In this document: positions 1,976-55,820 of the stretch, piece by piece | Layout of the letters: every line of letters begins with the position of its first letter | Position numbering within the stretch: the stretch's first letter is position 1 | Program-made: the position numbers and the translations under genes | Assembly: GCF_009936275.1 (NCBI RefSeq) | Contig: NZ_AP019797.1 | Location: 1,541,501 to 1,605,500 of the forward strand | From: Rhodothermus marinus | Lineage (GTDB): Bacteria; Bacteroidota; Rhodothermia; Rhodothermales; Rhodothermaceae | DNA: 64,000 nucleotides | Direction: 5' to 3' | Notes under the pieces: model-generated | What the model saw: the letters and a program-made list of their open reading frames with translations, nothing else | What the model was told of the DNA's origin: nothing | The model's database searches: none

Positions 1976-1998
1976 AAGTCTGTTATTGCGATACAAAA
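1976..1998 (+). repeat. Diverged copy of the CCGTTATTGCAATGC motif before parC
   Basis: The sequence AAGTCTGTTATTGCGATAC lies directly before the parC ATG. It aligns with the scpB copy (AAGTCCGTTATTGCAATGC) with a few substitutions, and both are followed by an ACAAA run. It is the weakest of four related sites in the window. Confidence 0.5.
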
Positions 1999-4326
1999 AT
2001 GCCGGTTGTAGAAGTCATTCCCCTGCACGAGACGACGCGGGAGCGTTATCTGAACTTCGCGTTGTCCGTTATTACAAGCCGCGCGTTGCCCGACATCCGG
2101 GACGGTCTCAAACCCGTCCAGCGGCGCATTCTGTATGCGATGTTTCAGCACCTGCGTCTCTACCCGGATGCCCGCTATCGCAAAAGCGCCACGATCGTCG
2201 GCGAGGTGATGGGTAAGTACCACCCGCACGGCGACGCGGCCATCTACGAAGCCATGGTGCGGATGGCGCAGGACTTTTCGCTGCGCTATCCGCTGGTGGA
2301 CGGGCACGGCAACTTCGGGTCGATCGACGGCGACGCGGCGGCCGCCATGCGCTACACCGAGGCGCGGCTGCGTCCGCTGGCCATGCAGCTCCTGGAGGAG
2401 CTGCGGCGCCAGACCGTCCCCATGCGGCCCAACTTCGACGGTACGCTCTTCGAGCCGGTGGTCCTTCCGGCCCGCTTCCCGAACCTGCTCGTCAACGGTG
2501 CCAGCGGCATCGCGGTGGGCATGGCGACCAACATCCCGCCCCACAACCTGGGCGAGGTGATCGACGCGCTCATCTATCTAATCGACGTGCCCAACGCGCC
2601 GCTGGAGACCATCCTGGAGCGGTTCATCCAGGGGCCTGACTTCCCGACCGGCGGCCGGGTGCTCAACACGCGCGAGGAGTTGCTGGAAATCTACCGCACA
2701 GGCGAGGGGCCCATCGAACTGCGCGGTGAATACAAACTGGAGGGCAAGACGCGCATCGTCATTACGTCGATCCCGTACGGCATTGCCAAGGCCGACCTGG
2801 TCGAGAAGATCGCCGAGCATATCGCGGCCGGCAAGGTGCCCCAGCTTTCGGACGTGCGAGACGAATCGACCGACGAGGTGCGCATCGTGCTCGAGCTGCG
2901 CCGAGGCGCCGATCCGGAGGCGGCCATGGCCTACCTGTTCCGACACACGCCGCTTCAGACGCGCTTTCACGTGAACCTGACGTGTCTGGTACCGACGGCC
3001 AACCCGGAGGTCGCCGCGCCGCGCAAGGTCGATCTGATGACCATGCTCCGGGCCTTTCTCGAATTCCGCATGGAAGTGGTGGTGCGGCGACTGCGCTACG
3101 ATCTGGAGCAACTTGAGCGCCGCATCCACATCCTGCGTGGATTCGAGAAAATCTTCGGGGCGCTGGACGAAGCCATACGGATCATCCGCGCCGCGCGCGA
3201 CAAGGCCGACGCCGCCCAGCGCCTGATGCACCGCTTCCAGCTCGACGACGAGCAGGCCGACGCCATCCTGGAAACGAAACTCTACAAGCTCTCGCGGCTG
3301 GAGATCGAAGCGATCCGTCAGGAGCTGGAGGAAAAAGAAAAGCAGGCGGCCGAACTGCGGGCGCTGCTGGCCGACGAGGCCGCCCGCTGGGGTCTCATCC
3401 GCGAGGAATTGAAGGCCATCAAAAAGCAATTTGCCGACGCGCGGCGCACCGTCATCGCCGGACCCGACGAGGGCTTCGAATACAACCAGGAAGCCTACAT
3501 CGTGGACGAGGACGTGTACGTCATCGTTACACGGGACGGCTGGGTCAAACGCCAGCGCTCCTACACGGACGTGCAGAGCATCCGCGTCCGTGAGGGCGAT
3601 ACGGTGGGCTGGGTGCTTCCCGGTTCGACCCGCGCCACCGTCGGTTTCTTTACAAACTACGGCCGCTGCTACACCACGCGCATCGATTCGCTCCCCAGCA
3701 CGACGGGGTATGGCGATCCGGTGCAGAAGCTGTTCGACTTTTCGGACCGAGAGCGCGTTGTTGGCGTGGTGGTCTTCGACGAGCGGGCACTTCCTCGGCC
3801 GGTTCCGGAGCCCGAAGTCGAACCGGCACTGTTCGAAAACGGAGAGAAGGAACCGCCCCGGCTCCATGTGGTGGCCGTCACCCGTAAAGGCCAGACGCTC
3901 CGCATCCCCATCGATGGCTTCCGGGAGCCGTCCACGAAAAATGGCCGCCTTTTCATGCGCCTGGAGAAAGGCGACGAGGTGCTGGGCGTCGAGGTAGCGG
4001 CCGGCGACGAGAACGTCTGTCTGGCTTCACGCGAGGGCTACGTGCTCATCTTCCCTGTGCACCAGATCCCGCCGGTCAAGTCGGCGGCCAAAGGCGTGAT
4101 CGCCATGCGTCTGGGCAAGGGCGACGAGGTGCTGGGCTTCACGCTGGCTTCGGCCGCCCGCGAGGGGCTGGAGGTGGAGACCAGCCGCGGCCGGCGCGAG
4201 ATCGTCCGCACCACGAAGTTCGAGGTGTCGCGCCGGGGTAACCGGGGCCGGCAGATCATCCGGCGCGGCCAGCTCGTCCGGGTCATCCCGGCGCCGGTGG
4301 AAATTCGTTTGAACGGACAGGGATAA
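1999..4326 (+). CDS. parC: Type IIA DNA topoisomerase subunit A (ParC/GyrA-like)
   Basis: The DNA-cleaving subunit of a type II topoisomerase. The breakage-reunion domain has [20 protein letters not shown] and [11 protein letters not shown], whose Tyr119 is the nucleophile that attaches to DNA. A coiled coil follows near residues 350-470, then a six-bladed C-terminal domain with an acidic insert around 600-620. I see no canonical GyrA box (QRRGGKG-like) in the C-terminal domain. Together with the DADSDG form in the partner subunit, this favours topoisomerase IV over gyrase. However, the quinolone-pocket region (GNFGSIDGD) is gyrase-like, so the paralogue call is tentative. The ATG at 1999 is chosen because [18 protein letters not shown] matches the family N terminus; the 775-residue protein is a normal length. 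Subunit B starts 13 bases downstream. Confidence 0.8.
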
Positions 4327-39744: not shown

Positions 39745-39766
39745 CAAAATCCGTTATTGCAATGCA
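39745..39766 (+). repeat. Dispersed CCGTTATTGCAATGC motif, prfB copy
   Basis: A 22-base stretch covering the bases before and including the prfB start codon is identical to the stretch over the galE start codon (53493-53514). In both, the gene's ATG is the ATG inside GCAATGCA. A 16-base core recurs in scpB. Confidence 0.85.
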
Positions 39767-40878
39767 GGAAAAAATTCAAAGCCTGTTAGAGCGTGTGGAC
39801 ACGCTCGGGAGGTTTCTTTGACATCCCCGGGCGTAAAGAGAAAATCGCGAAGCTGAACGAGGAGCGTCTGGCGCCGGGCTTCTGGGACAACCCGGAGCGG
39901 GCGCGTGAGGTCGAAAAGCAAATCGCCGAAGAAGAGTCCTGGGTGGCGGCGTGGGAGCAGCTGCGTCGCCAGGCCGATGATGTACAGACGCTGCTGGAAC
40001 TCCAGCAGGAGGAGCCCGACGCGAACCTGGAAGAAGAGATCGCGCGGGAAGTGGCCCGCCTGGAGCAGCAGCTTGACGAGCTGGAGCTGCGCAGCCTGCT
40101 GACCGATCCCGACGACCACCGGAACGCCATCCTGACCATTCATCCGGGGGCCGGCGGGACGGAAAGCCAGGACTGGGCCGAAATGCTCCTGCGCATGTAC
40201 ACGCGCTGGGGCGAACGACACGGCTACGACGTGGAGCTGCTCGAATACCAGGCGGGCGACGTGGCCGGCATCAAGAGCGCCACGCTGCGCATTGCCGGAC
40301 CCTACGCTTACGGCTATCTGAAGGGCGAGTCTGGCGTACACCGGCTGGTGCGCATCTCGCCGTTCGATGCGAGCGGCCGACGCCATACGTCCTTTGCCAG
40401 CGTGTTCGTCTATCCGGAGATCGACGACTCGATCGAGGTCGACATCCGGCCCGACGAGATCGAAATGCAGACGTTCCGCAGCGGTGGAAAAGGCGGACAG
40501 AACGTCAACAAAGTGGAGACGGGCGTCCGCCTGATCTGGCACGGCAAGCTCTCGAACGGCGAGGAGGCCAGAGTCGTGGCCGAGTGCACCGAAGAACGCA
40601 GCCAGCTTCAGAACCGGCAGCGGGCGCTCACCATGCTCAAAAGCCGGATCTACCAGCTGGAGCGGGAGATCCGCGAGGCCGAAAAGCGCAAGCGGGAGTC
40701 CCAGAAGAAAAAGATCGAGTGGGGGAGTCAGATTCGTTCCTACGTCTTTCAGCCCTACACGATGGTCAACGACCATCGCACCGAAACGAAAGTGACGGAC
40801 GTCCAGGCCGTCATGGACGGTGACCTGGACCCGTTCATCCGGGCCTACCTGCTGTCGCAGGTGAACGAAGCCGCCTGA
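39762..40878 (+). CDS. prfB: Peptide chain release factor 2 (programmed +1 frameshift)
   Basis: Release factor 2, which ends translation at UGA and UAA. Zero frame from ATG 39762 encodes [19 protein letters not shown] and hits TGA at 39819. The ribosome must shift +1 at CTT-TGA-C (39816-39822) and continue in the frame that starts GAC ATC CCC GGG (joined 39762-39818 and 39820-40878). An internal Shine-Dalgarno GGGAGG sits three bases before CTT, the classic spacing. The catalytic GGQ is in [15 protein letters not shown] and the UGA-reading SPF in [11 protein letters not shown]. Low RF2 favours shifting, so the gene is autoregulated. nadB follows after one base. Confidence 0.97.
39807..39822 (+). 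promoter_or_regulatory. RF2 programmed frameshift site
   Basis: GGGAGG (39807-39812), a three-base spacer, then CTT TGA C (39816-39822). This reproduces the E. coli prfB recoding signal of an internal SD, three-base spacer and slippery CUU before UGA C. Confidence 0.95.
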
Positions 40879-53492: not shown

Positions 53493-53514
53493 CAAAATCC
53501 GTTATTGCAATGCA
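53493..53514 (+). repeat. Dispersed CCGTTATTGCAATGC motif, galE copy
   Basis: 22 bases identical to the prfB copy at 39745-39766; the galE ATG (53510) is inside it. Upstream bases (GTC followed by an A/T-rich stretch) are also similar. Confidence 0.85.
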
Positions 53515-54442
53515 AAAAGTGCTGGTAACTGGAGGCGCCGGCTTTATCGGATCGCACGTAGCCGACGCCCTGCTAGAAAGGGGATACGAGGTGCACATTC
53601 TGGACGACTTCTCTTCGGGACGTGAAGAAAACGTGCCGGCCGGAGCCGTGGTCCATCGGATGGACGTCCGGGATGAGGCCGTGGCCGATCTGTTTGCGCG
53701 TGAGCGGTTTCCGATTTTGATCCATCACGCTGCGCAGATGGACGTGCGCCGCTCGGTGGCTGATCCCAAATTCGATGCGGACGTCAACATCATGGGACTG
53801 CTGAACCTGATGGAAGCCGGGCGGCAACACGGCCTGCAGAAGGTGATCTTCGCCTCGACGGGCGGGGCCATTTACGGTGAGCCGGACTACGTGCCCCAGG
53901 ACGAAGACCACCCGGTGCGGCCACTTTCGCCTTACGGCATCACGAAGCTGGCTTCTGAAAAGTACCTCTACTTCTACGAGCAACAGTACGGCATCCCGTA
54001 CGTCGCGCTGCGCTACGCGAACGTGTACGGCCCCCGGCAGAACCCCCACGGAGAAGCCGGCGTGGTGGCCATCTTCACGCAGCGCATGCTCGAGGGTAAG
54101 CAGCCGGTCATCTACGGCTCGGGCGAGCAGACGCGCGACTTCGTGTACGTCGGCGACGTGGTGGAAGCGAATCTTGCCGCACTGGCCTATCCGGGCTCGG
54201 GAGTGTTCAACATTGGAACGGGCATCGAGACCAGCGTCAACCAGCTTTTCCGCACGCTTCGGGATCTGATCAACCCCGAAGTGCCCGAAGTGCATGGCGA
54301 GGCCAAGCCGGGCGAACAGCAGCGCAGCGTGCTGGGCTACGAACGGGCTCGCCGCGAGCTGGGCTGGGAGCCCCGGGTGTCGCTGCAGGAAGGACTCCGG
54401 CGCACGGTGGAGTGGTTCCGCGCGCGGGTGACCGTCGGCTGA
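53510..54442 (+). CDS. galE: NAD-dependent epimerase (UDP-glucose 4-epimerase type)
   Basis: An extended short-chain dehydrogenase acting on nucleotide sugars for cell-surface polysaccharide. The NAD motif is VLVTGGAGFIGSHVADALLERGYEVHILDDFSSG; the catalytic set is IFASTGGAIYGEPDYVPQDEDHPVRPLSPYGITKLASEKYL (Tyr-x-x-x-Lys). Substrate-binding YGPRQNPHGEAGVVAIF is present. The 310-residue length is that of the archaeal/thermophile GalE class, so epimerisation of UDP-glucose or UDP-GlcNAc are both possible. The ATG at 53510 puts the NAD motif at the N terminus. scpA follows after three bases. Confidence 0.88.
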   Translation: MQKVLVTGGAGFIGSHVADALLERGYEVHILDDFSSGREENVPAGAVVHRMDVRDEAVADLFARERFPILIHHAAQMDVRRSVADPKFDADVNIMGLLNLMEAGRQHGLQKVIFASTGGAIYGEPDYVPQDEDHPVRPLSPYGITKLASEKYLYFYEQQYGIPYVALRYANVYGPRQNPHGEAGVVAIFTQRMLEGKQPVIYGSGEQTRDFVYVGDVVEANLAALAYPGSGVFNIGTGIETSVNQLFRTLRDLINPEVPEVHGEAKPGEQQRSVLGYERARRELGWEPRVSLQEGLRRTVEWFRARVTVG

Positions 54443-54445
54443 ACC

Positions 54446-55198
54446 ATGTATCGCGTTCGGCTTCCCGTCTTCGAAGGTCCCCTGGACCTGCTGCTTTACT
54501 TCATCCGACGGGATGAGCTGGACATCTACGACATTCCGGTCGCCCGCATTGCCGACGAGTTTCTGGCCTATGTGCGCCTGATGGAGGAGCTTGACCTGGA
54601 CGGTGTGGGGGACTTTCTGTACCTGGCCGCCGTGCTGCTCCATATCAAGGCGCAGATGCTGCTGCCGCGCCCGCCAGCGCCGGCCGACAACGAAGCGGAG
54701 CCGGCCGATCCCCGCCAGGAGCTGGTGGAGCGGCTCCTGAATTACCTGCGCTATAAGGACGCTGCCGGACGGCTGGATGCGCAGGTCGAGGCGCGGCAGC
54801 AGCTCTACACGCGGGGCGCAGCGGCCGGGGCAGGGGATGAAGTGGCTGAGCAGGGACCGCCGCCGCTGGCGCCGGTACCCCTGTTTGAGTTGCTGGATGC
54901 ATTGCGGAGAGTGCTGGAGCGTCGGGTCGAACCGCCAGCGCATACCGTCCGGCGAGAGATCTACAGTGTGGAGGCGCAGATGGATTACGTGCAGGCGCAG
55001 CTGCAGGACGGCCGGGCGCGTCCGTTCGGGGAGCTGGTGGCCGGGCGTCCGCGTGGATTCGTGATCGCCACGTTTCTGGCCGTGCTGGAGCTGGCCCGGC
55101 AGGGCAGGATATGGATTCGGTTGCTGGACGGCCGGGAAGATTTTCTGGTGGAAGCCTGCGAAGCAACGGCGATGGAGGAGGCCGATGTTGCAGCCTGA
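54446..55198 (+). CDS. scpA: Segregation and condensation protein A
   Basis: Kleisin subunit of the SMC-ScpAB condensin. The N-terminal domain reads YRVRLPVFEGPLDLLLYFIRRDELDIYDIPVARIADEFLAYVRLMEELDLDGVGDFLYLAAVLLHIKAQMLLPRP, a textbook ScpA start. The C-terminal winged helix that binds the SMC head is in RRVEPPAHTVRREIYSVEAQMDYVQAQL...VIATFLAVLELARQGRIWI. At 250 residues it is normal. The stop overlaps the scpB start by 14 bases, so the two condensin subunits are co-translated. Confidence 0.95.
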   Translation: MYRVRLPVFEGPLDLLLYFIRRDELDIYDIPVARIADEFLAYVRLMEELDLDGVGDFLYLAAVLLHIKAQMLLPRPPAPADNEAEPADPRQELVERLLNYLRYKDAAGRLDAQVEARQQLYTRGAAAGAGDEVAEQGPPPLAPVPLFELLDALRRVLERRVEPPAHTVRREIYSVEAQMDYVQAQLQDGRARPFGELVAGRPRGFVIATFLAVLELARQGRIWIRLLDGREDFLVEACEATAMEEADVAA

Positions 55199-55820
55199 GC
55201 GCAATGGAATGGCGGCCACGCCGCTGATGCAGGGGATCGAGGCGTTGCTGTTTGTGGCCGATGCGCCGCTTTCGGCCGAAGAGCTGGCCGCGCTATGGGA
55301 GCGGGCCTACGGCACGCGGCCGGAGGCCGGAGAGATCGAGCAGGCCATCGCGGCGCTCAACGACGTGTATGAAAAGACCGGCCGCGTTTTCCGGATTTAT
55401 CGCTGGGGGGGCGGTTTTCGGCTGGCCACGATGGCTTCAGTAAGTCCGTTATTGCAATGCTACAAACAACAGGAAGTCAAACTATCTCAGACACTGCTCG
55501 AAACGCTCGCGATCATCGCCTATCGCCAACCGATTACCAAACCTGAAATCGACCACATTCGTGGGGTCAACTCCGACTATGCCATTCGACGACTGCAGGA
55601 ACTGGAGTTGATCGAAATAAAAGGGCGCAGCGATACGGTCGGACGGCCGTTGCTGTACGGTACCACGCGACGTTTTCTGGAGCACTTCGGGCTGAACAGC
55701 TTGGATGATCTCCCGGAGCTGCCGGAACTGCAACAACTGCTCGAAAATCCGGAGATCCAGCGCGAGCATCTGCGCCTGCTGTATCCCCTTGAACCCGAGC
55801 AGGACGAACCTTCCGAATAG
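55185..55820 (+). CDS. scpB: Segregation and condensation protein B
   Basis: A winged-helix dimer that binds the ScpA linker. The first winged helix (about 10-90) has LMQGIEALLFVADAPLSAEELAALWER and FRIYRWGGGFRLAT; the second (about 105-180) has LSQTLLETLAIIAYRQPITKPEIDHIRGVNSDYAIRRLQELELIEIKGRSDTVGRPLLYGTTRRFLEHFGLNSLDDLPEL. At 211 residues it is complete. The loop between the domains (about residues 84-105, 55435-55505) is coded by an unusually AT-rich stretch that contains a copy of the CCGTTATTGCAATGC motif. Confidence 0.95.
   Translation: MLQPERNGMAATPLMQGIEALLFVADAPLSAEELAALWERAYGTRPEAGEIEQAIAALNDVYEKTGRVFRIYRWGGGFRLATMASVSPLLQCYKQQEVKLSQTLLETLAIIAYRQPITKPEIDHIRGVNSDYAIRRLQELELIEIKGRSDTVGRPLLYGTTRRFLEHFGLNSLDDLPELPELQQLLENPEIQREHLRLLYPLEPEQDEPSE
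55445..55460 (+). repeat. Dispersed CCGTTATTGCAATGC motif, scpB-internal copy
   Basis: TCCGTTATTGCAATGC, 16 bases identical to the prfB and galE copies, lies inside the scpB coding frame where it reads SPLLQC. Its ATG is out of frame with scpB. Confidence 0.8.

Follow-up and report, generated by a model that had tools for sequence, protein, structure and literature searches.

Replication fork traps have been reported as characteristic of only a small set of bacteria, the Tus-Ter system of some gammaproteobacteria and the RTP-Ter system of some Bacillus being the only ones named (PMC10331603). What purpose they serve is debated. Here we describe a polar motif of Rhodothermus marinus and its relatives which we consider, with a probability of roughly 0.83, to be the Ter site of a replication fork trap. 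The clustering of its copies, their orientation, their pairing on plasmids and the breaks in GC skew that accompany them were all computed from the genomes. No report of a fork trap in the Bacteroidota/Rhodothermota was found in the literature searched, subscription papers and preprints lying outside that search, and a text search of the literature for the letters of the motif gave nothing on replication or termination among the matches listed.

Results

A repeated sequence at the start codons of two genes

The window, by which we mean the whole 64-kb stretch of DNA analysed (1541501-1605500 of a single 3,430,829-bp, or 3.43 Mb, contig), contains two identical copies of the 22-base sequence CAAAATCCGTTATTGCAATGCA, one at 39745-39766 over the start of prfB and the other at 53493-53514 over the start of galE, just as the first-pass annotation of this DNA had reported. 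It had also stated that each gene begins at the ATG inside the motif, and this was confirmed: prfB opens at 39762 and runs for 19 residues to a programmed +1 frameshift (CTT TGA C), after which PCRF and RF-1 follow, and galE opens with the ATG at 53510. The 21-mer AAAATCCGTTATTGCAATGCA occurs twice in the window and in none of 100 shuffles, and the 15-mer CCGTTATTGCAATGC has exactly three copies in the window, the third of which lies inside scpB at 55446, where it is read in frame as P-L-L-Q-C and there is no start codon. A more distant copy with three mismatches is found directly upstream of parC, at 1980, so that the related copies announced for scpB and for the DNA before parC are both there. 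With up to three mismatches, five copies were found in the window against 1.0 expected, a count reached by only one of 100 shuffles. The sites and the genes next to or around them are as follows.

1980-1999, plus strand: Ter-like site CTGTTATTGCGATACAAAAA between the SLFN_AlbA_2 gene and parC; 30.3 bits; a copy adjoins parC in genomes G016 and G018 too
1999-4326, plus strand: parC, topoisomerase IV A; neighbouring gene only
39751-39770, plus strand: Ter-like site CCGTTATTGCAATGCAGGAA at the start codon of prfB; 35 bits when scored with a matrix from other families; orthologous copies at prfB in G001 and G012
39762-40878, plus strand: prfB, release factor 2, with a +1 frameshift near 39819; host gene only
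53499-53518, plus strand: Ter-like site CCGTTATTGCAATGCAAAAA at the galE start codon; 39.2 bits, the top-scoring copy found; conserved in G001, G002 and G004
53510-54442, plus strand: galE-type epimerase, with an Epimerase domain; host gene only
55185-55820, plus strand: scpB; host gene only
55446-55465, plus strand: Ter-like site inside scpB, CCG TTA TTG CAA TGC TAC AA; GC-skew change point in G002 and G001

The SLFN_AlbA_2 gene that adjoins parC (1223-1879) is kept in almost every one of 40 genomes from the order, and in several families a copy of the motif lies between the two genes. Copies beside parC or parE, the genes of topoisomerase IV, were seen in three families (e.g., G016:C1 4457015, and 1543480 in the genome of the window); this adjacency may be a mere reflection of a location near the terminus.

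The motif and its conservation

A set of 49 non-redundant copies from five families is described by C[CT]GTTATTGCAA, followed by three loose bases and an A-rich stretch from +15 to +19, with A or T favoured immediately upstream. The consensus, CYGTTATTGCAAnnnAAAAA, is about 20 bp long and is not palindromic. When a matrix derived from the other families was run over 864 kb of the genome of the window, 18 matches of at least 20 bits were obtained, 17 of which were correctly oriented; the reversed motif gave 0 matches in the matching 864-kb scan. Within scpB the codons TTA TTG have been retained in four Rhodothermus genomes, and as TTA accounts for 0.7% of the Leu codons in the genes counted, the retention of this rare codon points to selection at the level of the DNA. 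Such selection is also suggested by the plasmid copies (n=3), in which the cores are invariant and the flanks have diverged. The motif had also been considered as a tiny dispersed repeat, a view that does not stand, as conservation is limited to about 20 bp and orthologous copies keep their positions from family to family.

Layout around dif in the genome of the window

A search of the whole genome with up to two mismatches returned 14 copies, 12 of which fall in the interval from 1.53 to 1.84 Mb, with plus-strand copies to the left and minus-strand copies to the right. The core 10-mer CCGTTATTGC has 18 copies genome-wide; every one of them (18/18) points towards dif, 15 fall within +-10% of the chromosome length from it (p = 1e-8), and the set spans about 430 kb. 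The GC skew of this genome changes sign at 1.67-1.68 Mb, and it is here that a plus copy and a minus copy, separated by 159 bp, converge on a dif-type site that they enclose (AGTTGCGATAA-ATCCAC-TTATCAGAAGT, at 1678608). Since all 18 copies are aimed at dif, those at prfB, galE, scpB and parC are four outer members of the left arm, and since the window lies on the left arm of the terminus all of its copies are found on the plus strand; with the plasmid-derived pair set aside, the scpB site is the innermost chromosomal site of that arm. The CTG variant of the motif is polar as well in all of the chromosomes checked.

Among skewed k-mers in stretches of this genome, highly strand-skewed CRISPR-type repeats dominate (GTCTGAAAACCTGACCCGATGAAAAGGGGATTACGAC, and a second unit with GTTTGTAGCCTACCTATGAGGGATTGAAA).

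Distribution in relatives

In five complete chromosomes all 66 copies point to the terminus (18/18 in the genome of the window and 16/16, 11/11, 12/12 and 9/9 in the others). Exactly one strand switch was found in G012 (4+/7-), G018 (5+/4-), G016 (6+/6-), G017 (8+/5-), G036 (5+/4-) and G028 (3+/4-), the counts being those of single-contig genomes of other families or of the main contig, and the same polar layout is thus conserved in other families of the order. G004, which we take to be R. marinus DSM 4252, has 7+/9- copies, and a single switch from plus to minus also occurs in G050 and G102, which belong to a sister group in the class. Outside the class, the strands of the copies in G060 (37% GC) agree with the local GC skew; G261 contains 17 exact copies of CCGTTATTGCAA against 0 of the reversed control, and these do not follow the local GC skew. 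A count of the 12-mer in 296 genomes of the phylum shows it to be abundant in many families of the Rhodothermales and near background in most others, and almost no copies are present in some families of the order (f15). Families f1, f3, f7, f9, f11, f12, f13, f16 and f31 are classed as motif-rich, f15 and f18 as motif-poor. A scan of the genome contigs with the 20-base consensus gave 30 matches, comprised of Rhodothermales, other Bacteroidota and probable chance matches.

Near-identical stretches with a copy of the motif were encountered on secondary contigs of two genera (G017:C10 112599, G017:C11 32814 and G036:C5 44255); these probably lie on a shared mobile or plasmid segment.

Convergent pairs on plasmids and plasmid-derived DNA

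Convergent pairs of the motif are found on plasmids of three families, in one case beside a rep gene. One such pair surrounds dif on each of pRMAR01 (NC_013502), pRHOM17201 (NC_015970) and the plasmid-derived dif DNA of the genome of the window, and the cores of the pair and dif itself are nearly invariant whilst much of the surrounding region has diverged. In the genome of the window 135 kb of plasmid-derived DNA stands in place of the 7.3-kb chromosomal dif region, and it appears that the chromosome is now using the dif and the convergent pair of the plasmid. This DNA, which resembles pRMAR01/pRHOM17201, lies to the right of the window at 1604776-1739767; a 242-aa gene beside the plasmid-derived dif had no match in Pfam.

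The cumulative skew of pRHOM17201, calculated over the first 100 of the 105 kb on record, reaches its maximum at a point 92 bp from the centre of the pair and its minimum 30 kb off, near the annotated parA/repA genes. The two arms are unequal, at about 30 and 70 kb, and as the maximum falls at the pair despite this, termination is not antipodal. The skew of pRMAR01 is alike, if noisier. On a 35,505-bp plasmid of G018 (Salinibacter-type) the pair (1041/1143) follows the end of a Rep3 initiator gene at a distance of 30 bp, and its two copies enclose no dif-like site; this arrangement resembles the one in plasmid R1 (PMC10331603). A further pair is present on G017:C14, and neither there nor on the G018 plasmid was a switch in skew seen at the pair.

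GC-skew change points

GC skew is an indirect, long-term record of replication; its change points were placed with a maximum-likelihood two-rate model of G against C, scaled for overdispersion. In six of 12 replicons the change point coincided with an innermost copy to within 0-30 bp, and in those six it was away from dif wherever dif could be separately located, although several of the matches share orthologous sites, so not all are independent. The distance from change point to site was 4 bp in G002 (the scpB site), 29 bp in G001, 22 bp in G016 (innermost minus site) and 6 bp in both the genome of the window and pRHOM17201. In R. marinus the change point at 1567184 is the innermost minus site itself, 8.4 kb from dif, and the position of dif (about 1558768) is 9.2 log units worse. 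In G018, G050, G102 and G060 it lies in the interval between the innermost copies, off any site, which fits with free fusion of forks inside a trap.

Measured in 1-kb bins, the skew passes across the site from +0.077 to -0.162 in G004, from +0.161 to -0.137 in G001 and from +0.035 to -0.230 in G016. In these three genomes gene direction, as judged from crude gene calls, shows no switch at the break or is mixed without following the skew, and the break in G001 is inside scpB. In nine out of nine genomes the skew ranges from +0.046 to +0.177 on the left flank of the innermost pair, from -0.020 to +0.031 within the pair and from -0.040 to -0.168 on the right flank. This succession of positive, flat and negative skew is the signature that a fork trap predicts, in which forks run in one direction outside and in either direction inside.

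Search for a terminator protein

None of 40 genomes of the order had a match to Tus (PF05472) over the cut-off, with a positive E. coli control, and the same was true of RTP (PF02334), for which the B. subtilis control was positive and one weak match was noted in G024 (E 2.7e-4). In Tus-Ter and RTP-Ter the terminator gene is autoregulated from a site next to it; among the neighbours of those sites that were read here, no recurrent small DNA-binding gene emerged.

As to individual candidates, clustering of neighbouring genes across families for a binder encoded beside the site produced only syntenic housekeeping genes, presumably miaA, purC, a lolE-like gene, guaB and parC, and the SLFN_AlbA_2 protein was rejected as it is equally present in motif-poor genomes.

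Discussion

From this layout we infer a terminator protein, its binding to the motif and the arrest of forks there. A putative DNA-binding protein would occupy each copy, letting through a fork that arrives from the CCG side and stopping one that arrives from the A-rich side; with such one-way stops forks could enter the terminus but would be unable to leave it, and the first to arrive would wait at the far innermost copy for the second. The first-pass annotation had offered a protein-binding site as one explanation of the repeat, and this part is probably right, with a role in replication termination and not in gene expression. The copies at prfB and galE would then be outer members of the left arm, the ATG of which has been put to secondary use as a start codon. 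On the wider scale, there is good reason to believe that this is a third, independently evolved fork trap with a Ter motif of its own, carried on chromosomes and plasmids across the Rhodothermales and in some related Bacteroidota, and that it fixes the point of termination strongly enough to produce sharp breaks in strand composition.

Other polar or terminus-associated sequences have to be weighed against a fork trap. KOPS are 8-mers bound by FtsK gamma that number in the hundreds over the whole chromosome, and a KOPS-like sequence which orients FtsK and steers the translocase to dif would share the polarity seen here. The innermost copies do flank dif, all good genomes have FtsK_gamma, and the gamma domain is conserved. 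However, we regard this as improbable, as the motif has only 18 copies, mainly near the terminus, and genomes poor in the motif (f15) have FtsK_gamma just as often. Distinct G-rich polar octamers also exist in the genome (GGGCAGGG, 52:8; GGGNAGGG, 101:28), and it is the presence of such a separate octamer alongside a conserved FtsK gamma domain that makes KOPS a poor rival. Nor would KOPS give a break in GC skew on one individual copy that is at least 8 kb away from dif, or a pair beside a plasmid rep gene without a dif-like site between.

It is similarly unlikely that the motif is a dif half-site, bound by XerC/XerD, at which condensin is unloaded at the terminus in the manner of the B. subtilis XDS. 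TTATTGCAAnn does agree in 8 of 9 bases with the XerC arm of Rhodothermus, TTATCGCAACT, when this is reverse-complemented, but the likeness is much lower in G014, G050, G060 and G102, in which the dif calls are pattern-based, and strict polarity together with skew breaks at single copies would be unexpected of an unloading site. What makes the Xer half-site a poor rival is that the dif-like arms vary between lineages (TTATCAGGGTT, TTATGTAAAGT) and the motif does not.

We give as little credence to some other marker of the terminus domain, whether a MatP/matS-like organiser or a Chi-like recombination signal. Enrichment at the terminus would suit such a marker; however, matS is a palindrome without polarity, Chi is a short signal found throughout the genome, and neither predicts skew breaks at single sites or the flat skew between the innermost copies.

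The overlap with start codons had led the first-pass annotation to propose control of translation initiation at the RNA level. An ATG is present at +11 in 12 of the 49 non-redundant copies; six of these open frames of at least 120 codons and three more open prfB, and the genes that start from it include at least galE, prfB, parE (G016) and pta (G014), the last two by sequence. The surplus of copies with an AATG in use as start codon is real, but strand is tied to the replichore and not to the gene, with copies found in coding sequence, between genes and at starts, and the proposal is not supported. RNA-level or transcriptional control of the genes starting at the motif, for all that several of these are real starts of unrelated genes, is hardly credible, as orientation tracks the replichore even in copies inside or between genes, and the restriction to the terminus and the plasmid pairs would be left unexplained. 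The AATG starts are best read as those of neighbouring genes that abut a conserved DNA site and make use of the fixed AATG on its border.

Comparison with known systems

As a probable Ter site, the motif can be set beside each of the systems that act at a terminus. With KOPS it shares polarity towards dif, but it is longer, far rarer and mainly confined to the neighbourhood of the terminus. With XDS, the XerD-bound sites of condensin unloading, it shares the location at the terminus and a partial likeness to one arm of the Rhodothermus dif; it differs in remaining constant despite varying dif-like arms, in being strictly polar and in having skew breaks at its sites. RTP-Ter of B. subtilis likewise has polar terminators that oppose one another at the terminus, although RTP sites are bipartite, with A and B half-sites, and the Rhodothermus motif is unlike them.

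There is also a resemblance to Tus-Ter of E. coli and its relatives, in which about 10-14 polar sites of about 20 bp are all so oriented as to let forks in and not out, the innermost sites flank dif and plasmid versions lie near the origin (R1), all of which are alike here; so too is the placing of sites partly within and partly between genes (PMC10331603). The differences are the phylum, the sequence of the site and Tus itself, which was not found in 40 genomes. The Ter core AGNATGTTGTAACTAA is not matched by the consensus, which by eye has only TTGYAA in common with its reverse complement. In E. coli the skew break has been reported to lie close to dif and not to Ter (Hendrickson and Lawrence 2007, by its title as cited in PMC3025954), whereas here it falls on the innermost site.

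If the motif is indeed a Ter site, fork traps would have a third representative, in another phylum and with unrelated sites, which would represent repeated convergent evolution and provide a comparison for the debate over what fork traps are for; a concrete target would be the protein predicted to bind CYGTTATTGCAA. Pairs on plasmids, one of them beside a rep gene, bear in addition on the proposed plasmid origin of the chromosomal traps.
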